Source: Verrucomicrobiales bacterium (GTDB lineage Bacteria > Verrucomicrobiota > Verrucomicrobiia > Verrucomicrobiales > DEV007). From it: a stretch of 38,102 bases of DNA. The notes below the pieces were generated by a model, which saw only the letters and a program-made list of their open reading frames with translations, was not told the origin of the DNA and made no database searches. Each line of letters begins with the position of its first letter. Positions within the stretch are counted from its first letter, which is position 1. Made by a program: the position numbers and the translations under genes. This document shows positions 22,592 through 29,651 of this stretch, piece by piece. The stretch lies in NCBI GenBank assembly GCA_022361255.1, contig JAKSBG010000358.1, positions 1 through 38,102 of the forward strand, read 5' to 3'.

Positions 22592-23284
22592 ATGAGCGAC
22601 ACAAGCCAAGCATCCAGTAATCCGATCCTTTCCATCATCGGCAGCGTTTTCCTTTTTCTTGTTCCCGCATCACTGATTGTCATGCTCGGAATCGTAGGAT
22701 TTGCCTTCGTCGGCGGCGGACTGGGAGGCGGTGATGACAAGAAAGAAACCGCCGAAACTCCGGCTCCGGCCCCGGCTGAAGCAGCCCCGGCGGCGGAAGA
22801 AAAAGTTGCGGATGCCGCTCCGACAGCAGCCGCTCCCGCAAAGGAAGAAACAGCAGCTTCGGCTGACGCCGCTGCAGAGATCGATCCGGCGGTTATGGCT
22901 CTCGGAAAGACAACCTACGCGACCTGTGCCGCCTGTCACGGCCCTGACGGAACCGGACTCAAAGCCGGCCCTGCCCTCATGGCACCCAGTCTCGTTGGTT
23001 CTGAAATGCTTCTCGGAGACCCCGACCTTCCCCTTCTTGTGGTTCTCAAAGGAATTGCCAAAGAAAACATGGACTTCATGGGCATGATGGCACCTCTCGC
23101 AGCCGGCCTCGATGACGAAAAACTCGCTGCAGTTCTCACCTACACCCGCAATGAGTGGGGCAACAGCGCTCCTGCGGTTACGGTTGAACAGGCAGCTGCC
23201 GCGCGCGCGAAATTTGCTGACGTGGATGCACCGGCCGGTGTGAAGCGTGCCGAACTGCAAAAGATCGTCGACGCTCACAAATGA
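22592..23284 (+). CDS. Membrane-anchored c-type cytochrome
   Basis: A 230-residue cytochrome. Residues about 12-40 form one membrane helix with no cleavage site, followed by GGGLGGG and a long Ala/Pro/Glu-rich linker (50-95). The class I heme domain contains CAACHG (C112, C115, H116), the loop GTGLKAGPALMAPSLVGSE, and a Met-rich MDFMGMMAPLAAGLDDEKLAAV segment that should supply the axial Met. The extended linker places the heme out from the membrane in the periplasm, as in small subunit-like cytochromes that shuttle electrons to oxidases or dehydrogenases. About 45 residues follow the last heme helix. Two TTCCGGCGTAAA copies lie upstream. Which respiratory partner it serves is not shown. Confidence 0.87.
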   Translation: MSDTSQASSNPILSIIGSVFLFLVPASLIVMLGIVGFAFVGGGLGGGDDKKETAETPAPAPAEAAPAAEEKVADAAPTAAAPAKEETAASADAAAEIDPAVMALGKTTYATCAACHGPDGTGLKAGPALMAPSLVGSEMLLGDPDLPLLVVLKGIAKENMDFMGMMAPLAAGLDDEKLAAVLTYTRNEWGNSAPAVTVEQAAAARAKFADVDAPAGVKRAELQKIVDAHK

Positions 23285-24986: not shown

Positions 24987-27900
24987 CTATCGAGGGACTA
25001 CACGATAAACCGCGCGGTCGGAAAGAGCGGGGGTGCTCCCGGAACGAACACGTATTCGGAGAGATTTTCTTCGTGCTCTCGACTTCGCCCTGACCTCAAT
25101 CTGAAACCACTGGGTATCACCCGGGCTCATACTGTCCAGCTCGAATGATCTGCGTGTCACAGATGAGGTGATATTTCTGCGTCCACCTGATTTGAGATAA
25201 TACCGGACTTTCAATCGGCGTTTTCCTTTCGAAGCCGTCACTTGAGGTCGGTCCTGGCCGGTATCGTTCTGCACTGCAAACATGGCTCGAGATTTTTTCC
25301 GGATGCGAATGCGACGAGTGTATTTCTGCCGCCCTCTGTAGATGTTGTCGCCGATCTGCGAACTGCGATTCCTGCCCAACATGATATCCGGTAGGGGAGA
25401 GATTCCGCTGAGTTGCACGGGAGAAGCGGAAGCTGTCTCACCCGTCTCATTGCTTGAAGCGATCCAGTAGAAAACAGTCTCTTCTGAAGCGATTGAACGG
25501 TCGATGAAAGAATTGGTTTCGGAGTGACCGAGAAAGGTGGCGGTTTCAAAGTCACTCGTTGATGCCCGGTAAATCCGGTAGTGAGTGGCGCCCGGGGAGG
25601 TGTTCCATTGCAAACGCGCGCCGGTGTCGATTCTGGATACCTGAATCCCGGTGGGAGAGGGGGGCGGCAGGTCTGTTCCGGAAAGTTCGATTTCCGATCC
25701 GTCCAGCTGGCGGAGGAAGGCGTAGAGCTCCTCCTGTTCGATCAGCGATAGACTGGTGACGCGGCGGTGGGGGGCTGTTCTGCCGATCACGTCGGAGGTG
25801 GTGATGGTGATTTCATCAATTGCGACGGGAAGCCATTCGGGATCGCTTACGAAGATTTCGATGGTGTTCGCGGTGCCGGGTTGGAATTGAACTCCTTCAA
25901 CCCGCCGGGTGTCCCAGTTCACGTATCGCCAGTCGGGAACGTTGCCGGTTGGAGAAACGGTGGTGGAATAGTCGGTGCCGTTTACGCGGACGACGAGAGT
26001 GCCGTCGCTGTATCCGGAGCTGAAGCGCACTTCAACCGCTCCGGTTCCGCCGGTCCCGCCGTCGACGTTGGCAAAGCGCAGTCGGCCTCCTTCCCAGACC
26101 TGTGCGAGACCGCCGTTGCGAACCGATGCGTCGTTGTTGTATTCCGTCCACTCGATTTCAATGCTGGCATTCCCGATAGTGGCGGCGTTTTCGGCCTGCA
26201 GCGTGTAACCTCCGGCCGCAGTAAATACGGATTCGATCGTTTTGGCCGTGCCGTCGTGAAGGTAAGGTGCTCCTTTCCAGAGACCGCGAAGGGTGGGCGT
26301 TTCAATTCCCGGCAAAACCCCGCCAAGTCTCCCCCCCGAAGTGTCGCGCAGCGTACCGATGTCGTGGAGAATCCCGTCGGTCATCTCATTTCCGCTGTGG
26401 CAGGTGGCACATCCTTCACGCTCAAAAATGGCGGCGCCGGCAACGGCAGTAACGGTGAGTTCACCATTCGTGTCCCGGAACGGGCTTTTCGGAATGGTAT
26501 TGTGCCCGAGGCTGGTGACATAGGCAGCGAGTGCGTCGAGGTCCTCGCTAAGACCGGCTTTCGGTGTGCCGCCGGGGGTGTCTGTGTTTGCGAATTGTGT
26601 ATCAGTTAGGAATCCGGTTCCACCGAATGCTCCGCGTATGTCGTGTTCGAAATCCTGAAGCTCATCGAAGTTGGCTGACCAGTGCAGGTTCCCCTGGGCG
26701 GTCCCTCCCTTTCCGAGGAGCGTTGTTGTGTTGCGAAGGCCTTCGCCGCGTCCGGTGAAATCCCAGGTTCGCCCGTCGTGCCCGCCGTCGACGTGGCAGG
26801 TCGCGCAGGACATGTAACCTTCGCCGCTCATGCGCGGGTCGGAAGCATGGTAGAAAATCTGTTTCCCGCGCAGAATTTCTTCAGGCAGAACTTCGGTTTC
26901 CACCGTGGAGATGTTTTGTTTCGGAAAGTCCGCTCTTCCCCGTGCCGTGAATCCTTCCAGCTCCACCACAGTGATGTCGCGGCTCAGGAAATTTTTCACA
27001 AAAAGCCTGTCCGTGACCGGGTCGATGCAAAGACCCCGGGGGGCGCTGCCGATTCGTTGACGGGAAAGAAATCCGCCCAGTCCGGATGAAGTGGCAAGAC
27101 TGAAGGTATCAAATACGGAAAGATCGTTGTTGCCCTGAAGTGTTACGAAAAAGTAATCACCAAGCGGGCTGAAACAAACCGCCGATGCCGATTCGCTGTT
27201 GTCGATGTCGATGGACTGAGTCACTTCTCCGGTGCCGGTATCGATGATTGTGAGAAGGTTGCGAACGGTATTGTCCTGATCGAGGTCGGCTCCGGTCAGT
27301 GTGCCGCGGTCCGTGTTCATTTTTGTTGAGACCACAAAGAGGCGGTCGCCATCATGGTTCACAGCCATTCCCGCGAGATAGTTCGGTACCCCTTTGCCCT
27401 CAGCCGAGTTGTCCCGGTGGGCTTCGCCACCGAGTTTGTCGAGACGGATCACGCGTTGGATAGAAAGATTTTCCGTATCCACTGCACGTATTTCCCCAAA
27501 ATGTGCTGCAGAGATAAAGCGCGAAACATACACGGTGGATTCGTCGGGTGAAAGAGCGAGAGCGCCGGGGGTTGGCCCAACATCAATGCGCCGGTCGACC
27601 ATTTGCGTGTTGGCATTGACTTGAATCAGCTCTCCTGGACCGCTCAAGGAGACGAGGATTTTTCCCGCCCCGGTTGCGATAACTCCCGCTGGAGCGTCGC
27701 CGTAATCGAGAGTGACAGGAGGAAGAGGTGTCCCGTCACTCCTGATTCGGTCAATGCGATCCCCGGTGCGGCAGACGACCCATGCGGTGCCGTTTTCGTC
27801 GACTGCGACCGACACAGGGTGATCGCCGACAGACCGTTCGAATTTCTTTTCCAAGGTGTCCGCATCAATCGCAGTTATGGTGTTATTGTCAGGATTCACC

Positions 27901-29651
27901 GTCCAGATAGTGCGGCCTTCTTCGTCCAAAACGATTTCCGAGCTTCGCTTCGGAGGTGCCGATGCCGTGCGATCCGTCACCGTGATCGTGAGAACTGCCG
28001 TGTCGCTGACTCCGCTGGCATCGCGGACTTGAACTTTCGTCGTGTAGTGCCCCACCTCTTCGTAGGAGAAAGTGGCGGATGCGGTCGACGACCATGCTGT
28101 GTAGGAGCCGCCCTCTCCGAAATCGAAGCGATACTCAAGCGGATCATCCTCGGGATCGTCAGCCTGCGCGGAAAAGGTGATGGATTCTCCCGGTTCTGCC
28201 GGATAGCCCGAGGCAGAGAAGTTCATGATTTCCGGTGGCAAGTTGCCGGAGATCTCCCCGCCGGTGGAAAAGGTAAAGGAGTAGCCCTCGATGCCGTTTC
28301 CGGCCACGTCCTGAATGCCTCCGGGGGGAATAACCACCTCGTAAGTCGTGTCGGGAAGAAGCTCGGCGTCCGGTGTGAATGTCAGGATGTCATTGAAGGC
28401 AAAAACCGCTTTTCCGGAAATCGGATCTCCTCCCATTGGGCGGACAATGAAATTTTCCCCGACCGTAATGGTGGGAGACTCGAGCGTTTCGTGAATGAGA
28501 ACCGAGATCACCGCACCTGTCGGGTAGTTTGTCTGCCCTGCCGCCGGACGGTGATAGCCGACCGAGGGACCGCGGGTATCGGGTTCAGCCTGGTGCGCCC
28601 AGATGGCGAGCCCCTGATTCTGGTCCATGCCACCTGTTGCGAGCAGGTTCCCCAGGGGAAGTGCGAATTGGCTGGTGTCGACATTCTCGCCCTCGGTATC
28701 GAAGCGGAGAACGGATTGCTGTGTTCGCATGTCGACTTTGTGACTTCCAAGAAACGCAAATTCATCCTGGAACTGCACATACATTGCCTGAACCCCCGGG
28801 AGAGAGACGTCTGCAATGAATTCCATGTTCTCCGGATCGGTTACATCGACGACACGCATTCCGGGAACCGGTTCGCGATAGGGAAAAACAACGTAGAGGT
28901 TTCCATCGTTGCCCCAGAGCTCCGGCCAGTAGCCTCCGGGGCCGCCGGTTTTGAGAACGTCAAGCAGTCGGGGGTTGGCTGGATCGCTGATGTCGTAGGT
29001 CGCCACACCTGTCCGGCTCTGATCCGAAGCAAAGATCAAAAGATTCCCGATGATGAAGGGGTGACCGATGACGCCTGTTTCACCGATGTGATCCCAGGTT
29101 GCGAGCGTGGTGCCGTCTTTGCTCAAAACGGCGAGGTCGTCAGTTTCTTCGGGATTGTAGGACCAGTAGGTATTGATGTGCCAGGGCTGAAAAAGATCAC
29201 CCCGGTCATAGGGGCCGCGAAGACCGGGGGTGATTGCCCGCTGATTCACATTCGGGGAAACGGCTCGAAACGAGAACGGTTGTTCCTGCGGCCAGTTGTC
29301 ACCGAGGGCAAGATAGTCTCCGATTTTCAAATACCCGTGTGCCATCACCGGGTGTTCTGTTTCGTTGTAGGTTTCGGCAACCGTCACATTCGAGAGGTCA
29401 GACATGTCCCATCGGCGCACGAGGAAATCGGAATTCGGCTGGCTGGCCGGCATTTCCGGGACGGTGTAGAGCCAGCCGTTGTGATAGGCGATCACGGCAG
29501 TTCGCCCCTGATTCGGGGCGAGGAGAGGGGTAAGTAAATCGCCCGGCGTCTGCGTAACGTTCGGAAACCCCTGCCCGTGTGCCCAATCGCAAGTCAGGAG
29601 CAAAGTCAGCACACTCATGCTGATCTGCTTTATAAAAACCATATCTACCAT
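24987..29651 (-). CDS. Giant secreted beta-propeller / di-heme cytochrome c multidomain protein
   Basis: A 1554-residue exported protein (residues counted from ATG 29651). A hydrophobic segment ending AHGQG is the signal peptide. About 30-390 is a first propeller-like LVIVD region; 394-467 an SbsA-like Ig domain (SGKAVFAFNDILTFTPD); 472-563 a PKD domain (FDFGEGGSYTAW, YTTKVQVRDASG); 564-917 a YVTN-type propeller (NPDNNTITAIDADTL); 918-1320 a di-heme cytochrome c peroxidase-like region with CATCH at 949 and at 1081, plus LRGLWKGAPYLHDGT. A carbohydrate-binding-like segment (about 1144-1280) is inserted before the cytochrome end (SLIEQEELYAFLRQLDGSE). FnIII follows (1329-1420), then a basic domain (1421-1554). 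Electron transfer or peroxidase activity is inferred from the heme motifs. An ATG at 29642 is the other plausible start. Confidence 0.85.
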   Translation of the reverse strand: MVDMVFIKQISMSVLTLLLTCDWAHGQGFPNVTQTPGDLLTPLLAPNQGRTAVIAYHNGWLYTVPEMPASQPNSDFLVRRWDMSDLSNVTVAETYNETEHPVMAHGYLKIGDYLALGDNWPQEQPFSFRAVSPNVNQRAITPGLRGPYDRGDLFQPWHINTYWSYNPEETDDLAVLSKDGTTLATWDHIGETGVIGHPFIIGNLLIFASDQSRTGVATYDISDPANPRLLDVLKTGGPGGYWPELWGNDGNLYVVFPYREPVPGMRVVDVTDPENMEFIADVSLPGVQAMYVQFQDEFAFLGSHKVDMRTQQSVLRFDTEGENVDTSQFALPLGNLLATGGMDQNQGLAIWAHQAEPDTRGPSVGYHRPAAGQTNYPTGAVISVLIHETLESPTITVGENFIVRPMGGDPISGKAVFAFNDILTFTPDAELLPDTTYEVVIPPGGIQDVAGNGIEGYSFTFSTGGEISGNLPPEIMNFSASGYPAEPGESITFSAQADDPEDDPLEYRFDFGEGGSYTAWSSTASATFSYEEVGHYTTKVQVRDASGVSDTAVLTITVTDRTASAPPKRSSEIVLDEEGRTIWTVNPDNNTITAIDADTLEKKFERSVGDHPVSVAVDENGTAWVVCRTGDRIDRIRSDGTPLPPVTLDYGDAPAGVIATGAGKILVSLSGPGELIQVNANTQMVDRRIDVGPTPGALALSPDESTVYVSRFISAAHFGEIRAVDTENLSIQRVIRLDKLGGEAHRDNSAEGKGVPNYLAGMAVNHDGDRLFVVSTKMNTDRGTLTGADLDQDNTVRNLLTIIDTGTGEVTQSIDIDNSESASAVCFSPLGDYFFVTLQGNNDLSVFDTFSLATSSGLGGFLSRQRIGSAPRGLCIDPVTDRLFVKNFLSRDITVVELEGFTARGRADFPKQNISTVETEVLPEEILRGKQIFYHASDPRMSGEGYMSCATCHVDGGHDGRTWDFTGRGEGLRNTTTLLGKGGTAQGNLHWSANFDELQDFEHDIRGAFGGTGFLTDTQFANTDTPGGTPKAGLSEDLDALAAYVTSLGHNTIPKSPFRDTNGELTVTAVAGAAIFEREGCATCHSGNEMTDGILHDIGTLRDTSGGRLGGVLPGIETPTLRGLWKGAPYLHDGTAKTIESVFTAAGGYTLQAENAATIGNASIEIEWTEYNNDASVRNGGLAQVWEGGRLRFANVDGGTGGTGAVEVRFSSGYSDGTLVVRVNGTDYSTTVSPTGNVPDWRYVNWDTRRVEGVQFQPGTANTIEIFVSDPEWLPVAIDEITITTSDVIGRTAPHRRVTSLSLIEQEELYAFLRQLDGSEIELSGTDLPPPSPTGIQVSRIDTGARLQWNTSPGATHYRIYRASTSDFETATFLGHSETNSFIDRSIASEETVFYWIASSNETGETASASPVQLSGISPLPDIMLGRNRSSQIGDNIYRGRQKYTRRIRIRKKSRAMFAVQNDTGQDRPQVTASKGKRRLKVRYYLKSGGRRNITSSVTRRSFELDSMSPGDTQWFQIEVRAKSRARRKSLRIRVRSGSTPALSDRAVYRVVPR

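Follow-up and report, generated by a model that had tools for sequence, protein, structure and literature searches.

We analysed a stretch of 38,102 nucleotides from a Verrucomicrobiales bacterium (contig JAKSBG010000358.1, here called the window), in which an open reading frame (ORF) on the minus strand, positions 24987-29651, encodes 1554 residues followed by a stop codon. The encoded protein carries a discrete beta-sandwich of the carbohydrate-binding module (CBM) type CBM35/CBM6 within a di-heme cytochrome c domain, spliced in shortly before a candidate ligand of the second heme. We put at about even the chances that the protein is an exported, glycan-targeted di-heme c oxidoreductase. Pfam and Protein Data Bank (PDB) matches and two structure models gave the domain order propeller, Big_5, PKD, YVTN-type propeller, di-heme domain (residues 925-1320) with the insert, Fn3-like domain and basic C-terminal module. 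An earlier note on this DNA, made from the sequence alone, had listed two propellers, an SbsA-like immunoglobulin (Ig) domain, a PKD and an FnIII domain around a di-heme region; all of these were recovered by Pfam, PDB matches and AlphaFold2 (AF2), and its two CxxCH motifs, at residues 949 and 1081, proved exact in a motif search.

The AF2 model, based on 72 sequences (mean predicted local distance difference test score, pLDDT, 82.9; predicted template modelling score, pTM, 0.82), places the insert (model residues 244-380) as a separate beta-sandwich with block-mean pLDDT of 84-98. The top Foldseek ranks were CBM35/CBM6 structures (2w1w TMt 0.80, 4qb2 0.78, 2wz8 0.77), and comparison of the insert with CBM35 modules by VIA gave Z 16-17. 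A profile of the insert alone (alignment A4) matched the CBM35 of Xyn30D (E 1.8e-10) and the GH31 enzyme 5x7o (E 1.5e-13). Pfam CBM_6 was matched at E <= 0.01 in 10 of 72 relatives and weakly in the single window sequence (residues 1152-1253, E 0.042); a CBM_6 search of the bacterium's own genome gave one match, elsewhere than in this protein. On these models and profiles, the fold of the insert is of CBM35/CBM6 type, which we take as settled. The earlier note had proposed a CBM6/malectin-type domain inserted into the cytochrome and had considered that the segment might instead belong to the cytochrome fold itself; the segment lies outside that fold and matches sugar-binding folds. The motifs YTLQAENAATIGN, VRFSSGYSDGTLVVRVNG and IEQEELYAFLRQLDGSE lie at residues 1149, 1208 and 1304, respectively.

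To place the insert within its family, 95 related genomes were searched with residues 905-1325. At E <= 1e-60 there were 40 strong matches: 25 end at or before query residue 334, and 15, one of them that of the window itself, cover the query in full. The other 14 insert-spanning regions and 21 of the 25 non-spanning ones were fetched as whole regions (four of the 25 were left out). All 21 homologues fetched without the insert have merely a short loop at its site, and residues 1148-1284 therefore represent a true insertion. A scan of genome contigs covered the best 80 of 310 relatives, ranked by likeness to the insert-bearing query, a choice that gives no share of insert-bearing proteins. After L073, which has a broken frame within the insert, and L102, whose contig ends there, had been dropped, 78 loci were aligned with the window, and in these 79 sequences the insert is 132-159 residues long. 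Removal of near-copies left 72 of the 79 (alignment A2), and 51 of the 72 (A4) remained after near-relatives had been left out by hand.

The layout recurs across bacterial phyla, as emerged from the search of other genomes that the earlier note had proposed. By record titles and taxonomy, the insert-bearing form is found in eight phyla (Verrucomicrobiota, Acidobacteriota, Pseudomonadota, Sumerlaeota, Planctomycetota, Myxococcota, Hydrogenedentota and Binatota), many of the records being metagenome-assembled genomes whose phylum titles may be wrong. A ninth phylum is doubtful: across the tree region, the one Actinomycetota bin (L141) does not differ from the Deltaproteobacteria bin L140. Named insert-bearing strains include Sulfidibacter corallicola, Acanthopleuribacter pedis, Exilibacterium tricleocarpae and Marinicella meishanensis. 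In a phylum draw, three of 144 genomes gave a match at E <= 1e-40, and the family is therefore patchy. Multiple gains of the insert were considered and set aside: a tree of the core alone needs three changes, yet a single clade is not rejected (p-AU 0.28), and we make no claim of gain or loss.

With its two CxxCH motifs and its similarity to CCP_MauG (PF03150), the core is placed in the bacterial cytochrome c peroxidase (bCCP)/MauG di-heme superfamily. CCP_MauG was matched in 72 of 72 family members and at residues 929-1000 of the window protein (E 8.9e-8), where Pfam also gave a RoxA-like_Cyt-c match, below its cut-off, at residues 1117-1144 (E 8.1e-5). Among the matches listed, the closest core structure is the gamma subunit of hydrazine synthase (HZS), 5c2v_C (VIA Z 15.1, 216 aligned residues, root-mean-square deviation 3.6). 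Residues H953, H990, W991, H1085, H1132 and H1295 are invariant in the 79 sequences. A HMMER alignment puts H953, H1085 and H1295 on HZS-gamma His106, His229 and His332, the offset being counted from the published residue numbers (PMC12758564, PMC12607021). The segment with His332 alone scores merely 3.1 bits. The VIA ranges agree with it: they end at model residue 412, paired with chain residue 353, which lie 21 residues past model residue 391 and chain residue 332, respectively. In the window, in HZS-gamma and in the short-loop rows L048, L061 and L066 alike, the next Leu follows this His at +6. The misfit rows are short loops of proteins with a galactose-oxidase-like head (described below), which by our reading have a His close behind the helix, at the classical Met place.

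In classical cytochrome c peroxidases (CCPs) the distal ligand of the second heme is Met, in MauG it is Tyr and in RoxA it is His. In the 79 aligned sequences the invariant His1295 is, by alignment, the candidate for this role, in place of the Met of the classical bacterial enzymes. In HZS, His229 and His332 ligate heme gamma-II, a bis-His, surface-exposed heme that receives electrons (PMC12607021). Because the insert ends about 10 residues before His1295, the counterpart of His332, it would sit on the ligand loop of an electron-relay heme, not at the catalytic heme. The suggestion of the earlier note that a glycan could be held close to the hemes changes as to location: by homology to HZS-gamma the place would be the loop of the second, exposed electron-transfer heme rather than the open catalytic heme. 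Its observation that the last helix of the di-heme region comes after the insert was borne out by the AF2 helices and alignment A1. Trp991 lies at +38 from His953, which is the spacing from His106 to His144 in HZS and the position of the Trp in CCP/MauG (PMC12758564, section 8). The CxxCH cysteines are the sole Cys residues of the di-heme domain, and none was found there to match the third thioether Cys of HZS (Cys165).

The heads of the proteins were compared across the family. The window's first propeller belongs to a group with LVIVD repeat matches in 11 of the 56 members of alignment A3, none of them in the window's own sequence; a PDB profile search returned nothing specific for it and Foldseek returned generic propellers alone. 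In 66 proteins the invariant residues of this propeller and Big_5 include R50, H105, Y165, Y241, Y291, Q295, K305, Q328, N335, D358 and H367, which suggests a working site. With its many invariant polar residues and no solved relative by sequence, the first propeller (window 28581-29570, minus strand) may be an unknown enzyme. The nearest relative is 89% identical in the head part versus 74% in the di-heme part, and the most distant ones 36% versus 44%. All six insert-bearing relatives scanned have Big_5, PKD and CCP_MauG, and four of them match propeller models; the position of PKD varies, lying after the di-heme domain in L108. By BLAST, the first propeller, Big_5 and second propeller were all matched in 72 of 81 insert-bearing ORFs, the other nine lacking a match to one or more of them.

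The short-loop relatives are of two kinds. A galactose-oxidase-like head was found by BLAST in 14 of the 21, and six have an LVIVD-type head without the insert; in L049, whose ORF starts at a contig end, neither type was seen. L050 matches galactose oxidase over the whole domain with E 1.4e-99. A simple motif search of the 14 heads found Tyr-His and RWY in all of them, DMFC in 10 and the last His in 11, among them residues that we take to be the copper ligands. All four short-loop proteins scanned, including both of the galactose-oxidase-headed proteins scanned by Pfam, carry lectin-type domains (legume lectin, PA14, F5/8, Laminin_G). L050 (6358-15297) and 13 further short-loop relatives are thus single chains of about 2100-3300 residues that join a galactose-oxidase-like domain, a propeller and a di-heme unit.

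The best account of these proteins, in our judgement, is that di-heme chemistry is coupled to the recognition or oxidation of sugar, although we would give it no more than half of the total weight. The hemes would form a pair of the HZS-gamma/bCCP/MauG type, with heme I (His953) as the likely open reactive site, Trp991 between the hemes, and heme II (His1085/His1295) as a bis-His electron relay. With the CBM35-type domain joined by very short linkers into the His1295-bearing loop, any glycan that it binds would be kept at the exposed heme where electrons enter. Chassis and head would be made up of the two propellers and the Ig domains. Throughout the family, a propeller head and a di-heme unit may make up a common exported chassis to which sugar-binding-type domains were added at differing places, in the window's branch in the heme loop. 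Since the head of the sister proteins is galactose-oxidase-like, the probable task of the di-heme part lies in the oxidation of sugar on the surface of a polysaccharide, where it would consume H2O2 or put it to use, or else exchange electrons. A bolder form, which we consider decidedly improbable, is a glycan-gated enzyme in which sugar bound by the CBM35 domain moves the His1295 loop and thereby changes how the second heme is ligated, or its potential, so that the protein is active solely at its polysaccharide; it would belong to an undescribed family of exported propeller/di-heme chassis, another branch of which has a galactose-oxidase-like domain joined to this di-heme unit within one chain.

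Sugar binding by the insert was assessed from the two most conserved binding positions of CBM35/6 domains, a Trp in region A and an Asn in region C (PMC9843283). We read the Trp of Xyn30D as region A and the column of position 1277 in the Xyn30D alignment as region C. Several observations weigh against glycan targeting. W1241 aligns with the Xyn30D Trp, and Trp is present at this position in 34 of 51 inserts, with Tyr in four (A4), and none of the 51 has Asn at the region C position, which weakens the case for polysaccharide oxidation. Mean pairwise identity is 32% in the insert versus 60% in the core (41 sequences), a difference that would suit a recognition domain whose ligands vary, or a domain under weak constraint. 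No recurring carbohydrate enzyme was found when 633 flanking ORFs of 81 loci (80 and the window) were clustered. The galactose-oxidase head was found in none of the 81 insert-bearing ORFs (BLAST) nor on the window protein (Pfam), and head and CBM35 insert never occur in one protein of the set. As to the hemes, the H990/W991 segment was modelled with low confidence, by AF2 without heme. On the other side, PcCBM35, a galactan-binding CBM35, has Asp in place of the region C Asn (PMC7939473), and because this binder also lacks the Asn, the insert could still bind sugar; we regard such binding as likely. The polysaccharide-oxidation reading gains indirect support because close relatives bear galactose-oxidase-like heads and lectin-type domains, a link to the insert-bearing proteins that is made by analogy. 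Oxidation or detoxification at a polysaccharide, as the earlier note had it, may by the same analogy be the role of the protein. Glu1154 and Asp1279, presumably structural calcium holders, are each kept in 47 of 51 inserts. The invariant insert residues (G1148, G1202, R1209, G1259 and N1262) are mostly at positions common to solved CBM35s and look structural.

This structural look and the missing region C Asn speak for the main rival: the CBM35-type domain would have given up sugar binding and would cover the exposed second heme as a structural lid, or as a module for protein docking, that selects or blocks the electron partner. The Trp kept at the region A position in 34 of 51 inserts counts against it, and the other lectin-type domains that sister proteins add elsewhere point to targeting; we regard the lid or docking role as possible and keep it as a tentative alternative. 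Membership of the core in the bCCP family would also suit a di-heme peroxidase of the ordinary kind, detoxifying H2O2 at the surface, with the other domains as mere adhesive scaffolding. This seems rather unlikely, given a second heme that is bis-His by alignment rather than His/Met and a two-propeller architecture kept across phyla, beyond the need of a scaffold.

The top NCBIfam score on the window protein was that of MauG (E 1.2e-14, far below its cut-off), and the head is highly conserved. Both would agree with a MauG-like maturase whose targets are residues in its own propeller head or in a partner; their oxidation would form or activate a cofactor derived from protein, the CBM merely placing the enzyme. 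Galactose oxidases use a protein radical and make their own cofactor by themselves; the former property makes the alternative galactose-oxidase-like head a point for a maturase, whereas the latter, like the candidate His in place of the Tyr of MauG at the second heme, is a point against it, and we judge this role unlikely. Nitrogen chemistry, with the protein as a relative of the HZS beta-gamma enzymes, is disfavoured and highly improbable, even though the fused propeller/di-heme order resembles beta-gamma, HZS-gamma is the closest core structure among the matches listed and NCBIfam hydrazine_BC scored E 5.4e-14, far below its cut-off. The extra Cys for the third thioether is lacking, Trp by spacing takes the place of His144, and HZS-alpha (PF18582) had no match in the bacterium's own genome, in a search whose controls were silent too.

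Table 1. Features of the 1554-residue protein, with coordinates in the window
Feature	Residues	Window	Strand	Basis
Probable Sec signal peptide	1-26	29574..29651	-	By eye: hydrophobic MSVLTLLLT, then GFPN; relatives conserved from residue 28
N-terminal propeller (LVIVD type)	28-357	28581..29570	-	AF2 pLDDT 96; LVIVD matches in relatives; conservation
Big_5 (SbsA-like) Ig domain	358-463	28263..28580	-	Pfam PF13205 E 1.7e-14; 56/56 members
PKD domain	477-552	27996..28223	-	Pfam PF00801 E 2.8e-12
YVTN/YncE-type propeller	570-900	26952..27944	-	Pfam Lactonase, Mala_s_1-like; NCBIfam TIGR03866, TIGR02276; PDB 1l0q E 3.2e-12
Di-heme domain before insert	925-1147	26211..26879	-	CCP_MauG in 72/72; HZS-gamma 5c2v_C Z 15.1
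First heme motif CATCH	949-953	26793..26807	-	Aligns with HZS gamma-I His106 (numbering of PMC12758564)
His990-Trp991	990-991	26679..26684	-	Invariant in 79; low pLDDT at site
Second heme motif CATCH	1081-1085	26397..26411	-	Aligns with HZS gamma-II His229 (PMC12607021)
Inserted CBM35/CBM6-type beta-sandwich	1148-1284	25800..26210	-	AF2, Foldseek, VIA, profile matches
His1295, candidate distal axial ligand of second heme (HZS His332)	1295	25767..25769	-	Invariant in 79; alignment; PMC12607021
Final di-heme helices after insert	1293-1320	25692..25775	-	AF2 helices H389-396, H399-410 (model numbering); alignment A1
Fn3-like domain	1330-1408	25428..25664	-	PDB 3mpc E 8e-4
Basic C-terminal module	1412-1554	24990..25418	-	32 further own-genome matches at E <= 0.01 (G000)

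The basic C-terminal module (about 130 residues), which recurs in the genome as given in Table 1, may be a sorting or anchoring tag. In 19 of the 19 other ORFs checked its match ends at most 62 residues from the ORF end (one open at the locus end). Its best Pfam match, E 0.0063, is below the cut-off, and NCBIfam gave none. Many Acidobacteriota and Gammaproteobacteria relatives (L072, L081, L082, L084, L086, L088, L089, L095, L101 and others) share a C-terminal motif like DGFESGDTSAW or end at DGFE, a possible sorting signal. Four clusters of flanking ORFs were found in at least five loci (13, 13, 8 and 5), and by eye they are regulator-like, Ser/Thr-kinase-like, mostly like extracytoplasmic function (ECF) sigma factors (chained with unrelated ORFs) and ATP-binding cassette (ABC) ATPase-like. 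The window also holds, at 22592-23284 on the plus strand, a gene for a membrane-anchored-looking mono-heme cytochrome c (Cytochrom_C E 4e-7), a possible electron partner.

Among known systems, di-heme CCP, MauG and RoxA have the core fold and the CxxCH pair in common with the window protein, which differs from CCP and MauG in its His candidate on the second heme and its giant multidomain context. HZS beta-gamma (5c2v) and the fused homologues that it has outside anammox (PMC12758564) likewise have a propeller followed by a di-heme MauG-like domain, with a second heme that is bis-His by alignment; the window protein adds the CBM35 insert, a second propeller and Ig/PKD domains, is without the third heme Cys and has Trp at the His144 position. 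Two result sections of that paper mention no insert. The same beta-sandwich (Z 16-17) forms the CBM35/CBM6 modules of Xyn30D (4qb1), Ct (2w1w and 2wz8) and CsxA (2vzp). These belong to glycoside-active enzymes, whereas the window module lies inside a cytochrome loop and its region C residue is not Asn. Cellvibrio Cbp2D/Cbp2E and Teredinibacter TERTU_3803 are likewise extracellular redox proteins joined to CBMs (PMC10916295, PMC12542752), but in TERTU_3803 CBM2/CBM10 are joined by linkers to X-type redox domains, in contrast to a CBM inserted in a di-heme peroxidase fold. Galactose oxidase (AA5; 9g8h, 1gof) resembles the N-terminal head of the 14 short-loop relatives; the window's first propeller is instead of the LVIVD type. 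Searches of open-licence PMC papers listed none that describes the insert or the galactose-oxidase/di-heme fusion.

Known cytochrome-CBM proteins carry the CBM as an appendage, whereas here it is spliced into a loop that probably ligates a heme. With the galactose-oxidase/di-heme sisters it becomes testable whether a single chain couples a sugar oxidase with a peroxidase (or maturase). If the inserted domain binds glycan, it would provide a direct physical link from polysaccharide recognition to heme redox state.
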